Shown one piece after another: positions 12,398 through 62,240 of a stretch of 64,000 nt of DNA (its first letter is position 1; the number at the start of each line of letters is the position of its first letter). The position numbers and the translations under genes are program-made. The stretch comes from Psychrobacillus lasiicapitis. Lineage in GTDB: Bacteria; Bacillota; Bacilli; Bacillales_A; Planococcaceae. Location of the stretch: positions 314,117 through 378,116 of the forward strand of contig NZ_VDGH01000001.1 in the NCBI RefSeq assembly GCF_006861795.1, read 5' to 3'. Under the pieces are notes generated by a model. It was not told the DNA's origin, ran no database searches, and saw nothing but the letters and a program-made list of their open reading frames with translations.

Positions 12398-13300
12398 ATG
12401 GAAATACGCCAGTTGAGGTACTTTATCGAAGTAGCCGAACGGGAACATATTTCGGATGCGGCCATTCATTTGCATGTAGCTCAGTCAGCAGTTAGTAGGC
12501 AAATCGCCAATTTAGAAGACGAGCTTGGCGTCGAATTATTTGAACGTGTTGGGAGAAATGTGAAACTGACACCAATAGGGAAGATTTTTTTAGAGCATTG
12601 CATTTCCGCATTACAGGCAATCGATTATGCAAAAAAGCAAATCGATGAATATTTGGATCCGGATAAAGGGACGATTAAAATAGGCTTTCCTACTAGTTTA
12701 GCAGGCCATTTTTTGCCGACTGTTATTTCCGCATTTAAAAAAGAATACCCGCATGTCGCCTTTCATTTGAGACAAGGGTCTTATCATTATTTAATAGACG
12801 CTGTGAAAAATCGAGAGCTGAATCTGGCATTCCTAGGACCTCTTCCGCCTAAGGATCATTCGATCAACACATCCATCTTATTCACCGAAAATTTTTCGGC
12901 ACTGTTGCCCACTTCTCATCGATTGGCAAAACGAGAGAAAATTCATTTAAAGGATTTGCTGGAGGATGATTTTATTTTATTTCCAGAAGGATATATATTA
13001 CGTAAGATTGCACTAGATGCTTGTAATTCCGTAGGGTTCACTCCTAACACCTCTTCCGAAGGGGAAGATATGGATGCTATAAAAGGATTAGTTGCAGCCG
13101 GTATGGGGGTAAGCCTTCTACCAGAAAGTTCTTTCTATAATGCAACCCCACGTTTTACAGTGAAGCTACCCATTGAATCGCCGATTATTAGGAGAACAGT
13201 AGGCATCATTAGCCCCTCCACCAGAGAGTTGTCTCCTTCTGAAAAAGTGTTTCATCAATTCGTTGTGCGTTTTTTTGCTGTACTCGGACAGTACCAATAA
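12398..13300 (+). CDS. gltC: LysR-type activator of glutamate synthase, GltC
   Basis: The 300-residue LysR regulator, the same length as B. subtilis GltC, is divergent from gltB. The N-terminal winged helix (MEIRQLRYFIEVAEREHISDAA ... QSAVSRQIANLEDELGVELFERVGR) is followed by a periplasmic-binding-like effector domain (TIKIGFPTSLAGHFLPTVI). GltC activates gltAB when 2-oxoglutarate is plentiful and represses itself. Neighbour and sequence agree. TTAGGAGGAAACG precedes the ATG. Confidence 0.93.
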   Translation: MEIRQLRYFIEVAEREHISDAAIHLHVAQSAVSRQIANLEDELGVELFERVGRNVKLTPIGKIFLEHCISALQAIDYAKKQIDEYLDPDKGTIKIGFPTSLAGHFLPTVISAFKKEYPHVAFHLRQGSYHYLIDAVKNRELNLAFLGPLPPKDHSINTSILFTENFSALLPTSHRLAKREKIHLKDLLEDDFILFPEGYILRKIALDACNSVGFTPNTSSEGEDMDAIKGLVAAGMGVSLLPESSFYNATPRFTVKLPIESPIIRRTVGIISPSTRELSPSEKVFHQFVVRFFAVLGQYQ

Positions 13301-13301
13301 G

Positions 13302-13524
13302 AAAAGCGCAAGCGCCTATGTCTGCTCCGACAGGCAATTGGGGATGTGGTAAGTCTGCAAAGTGCGCCACATCCTGTGGCAAAGCAGACATGACCCGCAT
13401 CGTGCGGGTCAAGGAGGCAGTTCCCCAGCCACCACAAGCGATTTTGTTTGCGACGAGCTTGCGCAGGAGCAGCTTTTTCACATTTGACCCCGAGGTGCAA
13501 AGCGCTGGAGCTAGATCGACACTG
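13302..13524. repeat. GC-rich interspersed repeat, GCGCAAGCGCC...GCGCTGGAGCT type
   Basis: This element lies directly after gltC. It starts with AAAAGCGCAAGCGCC and ends AAAGCGCTGGAGCTAGA, a boundary pair that I have seen flanking repeats in other bacilli. Inside are two perfect mini-hairpins: GCCAC-ATCCT-GTGGC (13366-13380) and GACCCGC-ATCGT-GCGGGTC (13392-13410). The segment TGCGACGAGCTTGCGCAGGA is shared with the element at 61935-62240. Open frames across it are by-products of composition. Confidence 0.8.
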
Positions 13525-37224: not shown

Positions 37225-37530
37225 CAAAAATAAAAAAACTCACCCCCAAGATTTTCATCTTGGGGGCGAGTCATATCGCGGTGCCACCCCAGTTCACTTC
37301 TACATTGCTGCGGAAGTCTTATCAAGTACGGCTTGGTGAATAAATCCACTAGCGATACTCTATCTCGTTAACGTGAGAATACGTTGCATCATCATTGTTC
37401 CAAGCAAACAAATCCACTGCACAGCTCCAAGCCTTGTTTCAACACATTTCCTACCCCTCTTTTTCAGCTAGCAGAGGTCTCTGTAGATAGTACGTATGTT
37501 TACTCTTCTTTTCATCGCTTTTTATATAGA
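37225..37530 (-). promoter_or_regulatory. T-box leader (tRNA-sensing riboswitch)
   Basis: Reading the minus strand, a stem I begins GCGATGAAAAGAAGAGTA (37525-37508). Its AGTA bulge is followed by AACATA that pairs with TGTGTT (37446-37441), then GAA (37440-37438). By the geometry of known T-boxes the specifier follows GAA: ACA (37437-37435, Thr), with AAC (Asn) one register earlier. The T-box GGGGTGGCACCGCG lies at 37290-37277, and the terminator ACTCGCCCCCAAGAT-GAAA-ATCTTGGGGGTGAGT (37271-37238) is followed by T-runs. The bulge UGGC predicts a G73 tRNA, which suits Asn better than Thr. Confidence 0.9.
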
Positions 37531-42011: not shown

Positions 42012-42094
42012 TGGATTTATACAGTCCAAAAACTCTTTATGATTTTGTTTTTAACAAGTCGATACTGAATAAGTAAGAAATATCTATTGATTTT

Positions 42095-42290
42095 CGCTTC
42101 AGACGGCGACTCCTGTGGAGGCCAACAGGATGTTGGTTTCGAAGGCGTTGCCACACGATGTGGCGTTCTTAGCCTTTGTTCCACATGGGCTAATGAGATA
42201 TCCCAACGTACGCCTAAGCGGCGGGGATGGCTCATCGCTCACCCCACGGAAAGCGTCCGGCTGGAGTGAAAATCACGGTGGACACCTATT
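42095..42290. repeat. GC-rich interspersed repeat, copy D with mini-hairpins
   Basis: The outer ends (GGCGACTCC at 42104 and GCTCACCCCACGGAAAGCGTCC at 42237-42258, then GAGTGAAAATC) match copy C inverted. The centre is replaced and carries CCAAC-AGGAT-GTTGG (42122-42136) and GCCAC-ACGAT-GTGGC (42150-42164), the latter between two GGCGTT copies. Confidence 0.75.
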
Positions 42291-42558
42291 AAAGCCTTAC
42301 GTCGCAGTTTCCCTAAACTACGTCATACTTGTTTAACAACAATTACTCAGATTGGATTGAATAACAATAAGCTAGCATCACCTCTTCTTTTGATCTCTTG
42401 GTTTGGTTATTACTAAATAGCCTAAACCAAGTAATGAGAAAGCGCATTTGAACACTTTGCTGTTACTGATTATTTACATGCCCTTTACACTAGCTAGATA
42501 TTTCGAAACTATAATATAGATTGAACAGTGTCTGTTCATTTTAGGGGGAATTAGTAAA

Positions 42559-53711: not shown

Positions 53712-54164
53712 ATGAGTGCTTCAAAGCATATACAAACTATATTAAATGGAACAATCCAATCTTTAAAATCAGTTATCCCTCTTTCGATGGATATAAAGTC
53801 CCCTTCTCTAATGGTACAACCTTTTGAGCAAACAGAAATGAGTGTACTAATAGGAATTATTGGTGATATTAAAGGTCGAATAATAATAGATTCTACTACT
53901 AATGGCTTCTCCCAAATCGGAGCAACTATGTTCGGAATGCCTTTAGAAGGAGAGATGCTCGAATCATTTACTGGAGAATTAGGTAATATGATTGCTGGCA
54001 ACTTGTGTACGTCGGTAGCTGCAAATGGAGTGGAAATTGATATTACCCCCCCTACTGTTATAGTTGGGACGTCCAGATTATTCGGATTTCAGCATGCTTT
54101 TAAATTACCAGTGGAAATAGCGGATGTTGGTGAAATAACGATTATTTTGACGATTGATGAATAG
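53712..54164 (+). CDS. CheX-like protein (CheC/CheX/FliY phosphatase family)
   Basis: The 150-residue protein carries the family phosphatase motif ESFTGELGNMIAGNL, in which Glu89 and Asn92 are the residues needed to strip phosphate from CheY. Repeated beta strands (SVLIGIIGDIKGRIIID) fit CheX. No chemotaxis genes are near, so its partner is elsewhere. GGATGGGG precedes ATG 53712; a longer frame upstream has no ribosome site. Confidence 0.85.
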   Translation: MSASKHIQTILNGTIQSLKSVIPLSMDIKSPSLMVQPFEQTEMSVLIGIIGDIKGRIIIDSTTNGFSQIGATMFGMPLEGEMLESFTGELGNMIAGNLCTSVAANGVEIDITPPTVIVGTSRLFGFQHAFKLPVEIADVGEITIILTIDE

Positions 54165-61850: not shown

Positions 61851-61934
61851 GTAATTTTCATCCCCACCTTACTTATAAATTAACAATTAGAAACTGAATT
61901 GCTTTAGCTCTGTATATAAAGTGAAACTTCAATT

Positions 61935-62240
61935 AGTGTGGGTTTTTCGACGCACAGGACGTGCTAGTGGGGACGTTGCGACATGGAAGTCGCACTTTGG
62001 TCCCCGTCCTACCCCACTGATTGTTAGTTGTGTTCTACACGATGTGGGTCACACAGACGTTGCAAACGCTCTTTTATTTTGCGACTAGCTTTGCGCAGGA
62101 GCAACACGATGTTGCGTACTTAGTCTGGGATCATTTCATTGGGCGCATGCCAGCAGTTGATCTCCCACTTATCTTTTCGCTTTTCTTCAATCTTGAAGTC
62201 GGAGTCTTACTGCCCGTAAAGCGGGATAAATGTTTTTCAA
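61935..62240. repeat. GC-rich interspersed repeat with mini-hairpins
   Basis: This island carries GCAC-AGGAC-GTGC (61952-61964), GCGAC-ATGGAA-GTCGC (61978-61993), CTAC-ACGAT-GTGG (62035-62047) and GCAAC-ACGAT-GTTGC (62101-62115). The run TTGCGCAGGAGCA matches the element at 13302-13524, where the hairpin is absent. A frame at 62021-62257 lies inside it and lacks a ribosome site. The rest of spacer 61851-62428 shows no gene. Confidence 0.75.

Follow-up and report, generated by a model that had tools for sequence, protein, structure and literature searches.

The discoverers of the Bacillaceae-1 element are said to have noted its nearness to rRNA operons. The RNA was described by Weinberg et al. 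2010 (PMC2864571), and its Rfam entry, RF01690, classes it as an sRNA gene. Sequestration of CsrA by a small RNA from the complementary strand has been proposed on the basis of a motif match, and the same paper quotes the discoverers as unsure of the strand of Bacillaceae-1 (PMC4333381).

We analysed a 64,000-nt stretch of the Psychrobacillus lasiicapitis genome, hereafter the window, in which the original prediction had described seven mini-hairpins with a common loop and recognised no named element of such form. All seven hairpins were confirmed in place. A name for them does exist: by covariance-model search and alignment, the mini-hairpins are stem-loops HP1 and HP2 of RF01690. The family is thus already known, and its setting is new. 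A literature search that took in few subscription papers found no prior account of carriage by TTTAT-type or other repeats, of the flush sense position at tRNA and rRNA genes, of wobble-free stems or of tRNA arrays of Bacillaceae-1, and nothing on repeats in tRNA spacers or in Lysinibacillus.

Bacillaceae-1 units in the window

The Bacillaceae-1 unit is about 67 nt long and consists of a 5′ box AAGGA, an outer stem around HP1, and then HP2, with loops RUC(C/G)U. The RF01690 alignment equates the predicted hairpins with its two conserved stem-loops, the outer stem enclosing the first, and this architecture is present in the window units with its pairing kept by covariation. With the Rfam covariance models (cmscan), three loci of the window pass the 35-bit gathering score, and they share with the described RNA the two hairpins, the outer stem and the RUCCU-type loops. 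A model built in the present analysis, R1, adds a fourth unit at 61951-62016. The four units lie in three unlike repeat elements, as follows.

13342-13408, plus strand: Bacillaceae-1 unit, copy 1 (RF01690 59.5 bits; R1 72.0 bits)
13353-13358 with 13384-13389, plus strand: outer stem of copy 1, GTCTGC paired with GCAGAC
13366-13380, plus strand: HP1 of copy 1, GCCAC-ATCCT-GTGGC, loop ATCCT
13391-13411, plus strand: HP2 of copy 1, TGACCCGC-ATCGT-GCGGGTCA, 8-bp stem, loop ATCGT
42122-42188, minus strand: Bacillaceae-1 unit, copy 2, with confirmed hairpins HP1 at 42150-42164 and HP2 at 42122-42136 (RF01690 66.3 bits; R1 74.1 bits)
61951-62016, minus strand: Bacillaceae-1 unit in repeat family A, with confirmed hairpin HP2 at 61952-61964 (R1 45.6 bits; below the Rfam cut-off at 34.1 bits)
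62034-62139, minus strand: Bacillaceae-1 unit in repeat family A with a 39-nt insertion after HP1, and with confirmed hairpins HP2 at 62035-62047 and HP1 at 62101-62115 (RF01690 41.9 bits; R1 40.0 bits)

The host differs from the described RNA in carrying the element as a dispersed repeat within larger elements, with at least 119 copies in the genome (150 of 479 candidates were scored), whereas elsewhere it occupies tRNA/rRNA operon spacers. Bacillaceae-1 is present in 89 of the 121 genomes of the host’s family and in 46 of 200 genomes of its class. Loops read RUCCU or RUCGU in most of 120 copies, and the T and C positions of the loop are nearly invariant.

Hairpins with a stem of at least 5 bp and a 5-nt loop A[CG]GA[TC], or its complement, were counted as one class. 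The window holds six, whereas 100 dinucleotide-preserving shuffles average 0.57 and never exceed 3, which bears out the predicted excess over a shuffled control. Five of the six are inside repeats, and the sixth, AAATA-ACGAT-TATTT at 54133-54147, looks like chance. Throughout 400 kb of host genome without a copy of the element, hand-picked stretches that serve as a control for other DNA and not as a random genome sample, three class hairpins were found where 1.5 were expected, a result near chance. The hairpin excess is therefore due to one repeat family. Elsewhere in the window, the Rfam covariance models place a T-box leader at 37259-37524 on the minus strand (101.5 bits).

Stem covariation and the scarcity of wobble pairs

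The original prediction was right that the loops are common to copies whose stems differ yet pair. Far from varying no more than the rest of the unit, the stems are its most variable part, with mean column identities of 0.49–0.69 against 0.88 for the loops and 0.84–0.97 for box, linkers and closing pairs (linkers 0.89–0.95). Covariation of the three stems was assessed over 16 base pairs in an alignment of 102 sequences less than about 93% alike. Standard pairs fill 95.7% of the paired cells, double-change cells number 425 versus 120 in shuffles (score 0.67 versus 0.17), and the signal collapses when pair partners are slid by one column. Among 120 sequences there are 31 versions of the HP1 stem and 58 of the HP2 stem, a few of them misparsed.

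Box AAGGA, linker CUAAG and linker CAACG are common to copies with different stems, so the copies are homologous and were not drawn from unrelated DNA. Such stems had been thought unexpected from descent of a single sequence; they reflect compensatory change within one family. Nor is the suggested building of each stem from local DNA visible, as box, linkers and loops are conserved around the paired changes. Within the window, stem variation lies mostly between three subfamilies and not among the copies of one.

A broader form of that idea has the stems newly formed from local DNA, or their perfection maintained by arm-to-arm template switching, with no selection on structure. We consider it very unlikely. 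Strict Watson–Crick pairing without wobble is what it would lead one to see, and in some operon copies the HP2 pairing continues through the first 2-3 bases of the gene that follows, although this extension is not general. Set against these points are the loops, linkers and box conserved between copies with different stems, and individual dispersed genomic copies that carry unrepaired single-sided stem changes. These changes imply that stems are not continually rebuilt in the host genome.

The structural case rests on covariation and not on folding energies, because single-copy energy folding is only moderate (z -3.8, -1.0 and -1.9) and favours, in copy 1, GGAUGUGG with CCACAUCC instead of HP1. 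Within copy 1 (13342-13374), CCACATCC of HP1 has its complement in the 5′ segment GGATGTGG, and this alternative is energetically preferred to HP1. For a pseudoknot joining the 5′ AGGA to the UCCU loops, 82–86% of cells could pair, with little covariation beyond shuffles for HP1 and none for HP2.

Functional RNA stems accept G-U, but not A-C, on the RNA strand. Inner stem pairs of Bacillaceae-1 contain the two equally rarely, at 10 of 1326 pairs each (0.75% each), and the operon copies taken separately have 3 G-U and 2 A-C among 429 inner pairs. By comparison, tRNA stems at the same loci contain 5.4% G-U in the acceptor stem and 12.9% in the T stem, with A-C at 0.8% and 0.2%, respectively. The equality in Bacillaceae-1 is not a search artefact, since a covariance model would more readily pick up G-U than A-C. 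Frequent stem changes run from C-G to G-C or from C-G to A-U, a route that avoids G-U. The rarity of G-U hints at a constraint on the DNA as well as on the RNA. The equality is compatible with a constraint acting on folded DNA, on both strands, or with stems that must be as stable as possible; the usual selection for a sense-strand RNA explains it poorly. Given this scarcity, a DNA-level process may help to keep the stems perfect.

Units between stable-RNA genes

Outside the host’s family, in other Bacillota, Bacillaceae-1 lies inside stable-RNA operons and often fills the whole spacer. Within 150 nt of a tRNA or rRNA gene, 80 units are sense and 2 antisense; the 80 are drawn from related genomes and from tandem arrays, so they do not amount to as many independent events, and both antisense units belong to one locus, in genome G277. 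The sense units end no more than 2 nt from a mature 5′ end in 46 of the 80 cases (26 tRNA, 16 5S and 4 16S). The following arrangements were found.

tRNA-unit-5S and tRNA-unit-tRNA: loci L219, L249, L250, L266 and L268
16S-unit-5S-23S: loci L222 and L259
23S-unit-5S: loci L267 and L271
unit-16S: loci L215, L243 and L277

Pairs of spacers with and without the unit identify it as an optional sense insert able to form the entire spacer. In Tumebacillus avium NZ_CP021434.1 (our G295, identified by an exact junction match), the gap from tRNA-Ile to 5S measures 2 nt in some operons, and in another it contains the unit and measures 66 nt. Similarly, tRNA-Pro and tRNA-Gly are separated by 1 nt in one genome and by 68 nt in a related genome. 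The host genome has one sense unit in a 16S leader, 22 nt before 16S, and at least 100 copies that are not near stable RNA. The 16S leaders of related genera contain no Bacillaceae-1 unit, and descent of the unit from the 16S leader was rejected on this ground.

Several spacers and leaders showed further peculiarities. The 16S-leader unit of G277 is antisense and that of its sister genome G140 is sense, at the same distance from 16S (L214 1501-1567, L276 1534-1600). A different insertion of about 150 nt is found in the 16S leaders of the relatives G096 (L178) and G111, about where the host has Bacillaceae-1. Tandem arrays of partial units occur between tRNA genes (L250 457-594, L268 1256-1363, L230 1369-1566, L236 1333-1566 and L218 1501-1826), in which box, outer 5′ arm and HP1 recur at intervals of 36-56 nt and the last repeat alone has HP2. 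In L261, L263, L264, L231 and L256 (tRNA-Lys/Leu and tRNA-Asp/Phe spacers), the unit sits within an apparent decayed extra tRNA copy, arranged as GGACTCTCACC...unit...TCGGAGTCCAGTATGGCTCACCA and followed by a repeat of the tRNA 3′ end.

The flush ends raise the question of whether the unit is a processing signal in tRNA, 5S and 16S precursors, with HP2 ending at the mature 5′ end and helping a nuclease to cut. That position recurs in three RNA classes and several families, and the single sense unit of the host’s 16S leader would suit such a role. Paralogous and orthologous spacers nevertheless lack the unit, as do the rRNA leaders of relatives; the flush position could result from insertion in very short spacers, and the host copies away from stable RNA number at least 100. 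A processing role is, on this balance, distinctly unlikely.

The sense position inside tRNA/rRNA operons fixes the transcribed strand in those genomes, and it disfavours CsrA sequestration, which needs the opposite strand. The complementary strand does have A(G/C)GAU loops, and csrA is found in 105 of the 121 genomes of the host’s family, including the host. However, the transcribed strand in operons bears UCCU and not GGA, and many loops are AUCGU/ACGAU with GGA on neither strand. Units are abundant in genomes where csrA was not found (37 copies in G091 and 20 in G082) and missing from many that bear it, so copy number does not follow the presence of csrA. In all, csrA was not found in 7 of the 89 unit-bearing genomes, such absence being weaker evidence in drafts (G082 consists of 2 contigs). 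We regard the proposal for Bacillaceae-1, a CsrA-sequestering small RNA from the complementary strand, as extremely unlikely.

Carrier repeats and mobility

Three repeat families carry the units in the window.

13298-13515, plus strand: carrier repeat family C (GAAAAGCGCAAGCGCC...GCTGGAGCTAGATC), delimited by BLAST against its own copies, some of which match to about 13559
42066-42317, minus strand: carrier repeat family B, limits approximate
61916-62230, minus strand: carrier repeat family A, 315 bp, TTTATCCCGC...TTTCACTTTAT, with two Bacillaceae-1 units, delimited by copy boundaries

Family A has sharp ends with TTTAT at both, and its tandem copies share a single TTTAT. Matching sites in relatives were compared, as the original prediction had proposed, and the insertions at 13298-13515 and 61916-62230 are absent in some of them. 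In the window, and likewise in G124, the closest relative compared, the family C insertion separates a stop codon from a terminator; it is absent at the matching site in G126, G123 and G057. The family A insertion is present in G124 and absent in G117, where the flanks are contiguous. In G124 the copy 1 unit is broken by an internal deletion, which indicates that it is dispensable. Relative to the genes beside them, dispersed host copies show no preference for either direction (36 sense, 28 antisense). In family A, the 39-nt insertion in the HP1 region, at 62063-62101 (GCTCCTGCGCAAAGCTCGTCGCAAAATAAAAGAGC), resembles part of family C (13430-13480) in reverse complement; the repeat families therefore share modules.

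Integron attC sites conserve structure and leave stem sequence free. Bacillaceae-1 is like them in both respects but has three stems with fixed loops; the comparison is one of architecture. Family A recalls the bcr repeats of Bacillus cereus, in which TTTAT has been tied to site-specific recombination-like movement (PMC6542083): both have TTTAT at each end, a single TTTAT shared by tandem copies, copy numbers in the tens and insertions that differ between species. Family A differs in its two Bacillaceae-1 units and in its genus, and the likeness is one of description. REP palindromes and their RAYT partners (PMC3733652) offer a further parallel in dispersed short hairpins, tandem groups and stems variable between families, but Bacillaceae-1 shows no GTAG tag at the stem foot and no Y1 link, and it is the loop, not the stem, that is fixed. 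Y1 transposase (PF01797) is absent from 7 genomes with at least 10 copies and present in 13 genomes without any. A REP/RAYT-type Y1 transposase was accordingly rejected as a partner, as it has no association with Bacillaceae-1 across genomes.

These parallels bring in the possibility that the unit is mobile and recognised as a folded single DNA strand, like integron attC or REP palindromes, by an enzyme that reads hairpin shape and loops, so that stem sequence is free but perfect DNA pairing is required. The equal rarity of G-U and A-C, the many C-G to G-C or C-G to A-U changes that bypass G-U, and the presence of the unit in many unlike flanks and tandem arrays argue for this reading. The strong sense bias in operons (80:2), the lack of gene-orientation bias among dispersed host copies (36:28) and the distribution of Y1 transposases argue against it; moreover, no candidate enzyme and no clean cut sites were found, and the dispersed copies move within larger elements. 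We consider recognition as folded single-stranded DNA possible but doubtful. The sense bias points against a DNA reading drawn from the wobble counts. A fuller version, in which Bacillaceae-1 is first of all a mobile folded-ssDNA cassette rather than an RNA gene, its loops read by sequence and its stems by shape only, and in which it inserts precisely in tRNA/rRNA operon spacers and hitch-hikes in TTTAT-type repeats, appears unlikely.

The explanation we place first is that Bacillaceae-1 is a self-contained folded passenger cassette, and we give it about an even chance of being correct. It draws on homology along the whole unit, covariation of the three stems, carriage within several unlike repeats, and the optional operon inserts on the strand of the stable RNAs. 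An operon unit would be transcribed together with the stable RNAs, fold alone without disturbing its neighbours, and be discarded when the spacer is processed away. Self-folding and removal with the spacer would account for the tolerance of the unit and for stems in which nothing but pairing counts. Loops and linkers would make specific contacts. In the host genome most of the carriage is by small mobile repeats, including one with flanking TTTAT, and within such repeats the cassette would spread in the host’s genus. Against the passenger cassette stands the wobble count, as sense-strand folding alone should tolerate G-U, yet G-U is as rare as A-C. The exactness with which spacers are filled also hints at something beyond passive tolerance.

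For more than 15 years Bacillaceae-1 has stood in the lists as an RNA without a known function and, as its discoverers are quoted, of uncertain strand. Its operon position gives the transcribed strand in those genomes and removes the main support for a CsrA sponge, the only functional proposal found in the literature searched. Operons that occur naturally in both states, with the unit and lacking it, permit direct functional tests. Counting G-U against A-C is a cheap test of DNA- versus RNA-level folding that could serve for other candidate structured RNAs from repeat-rich genomes. If the folded-DNA reading is true, a family of RNA annotations needs reclassifying, and the folded-ssDNA cassette would represent a novel class of structure-specific mobile elements.
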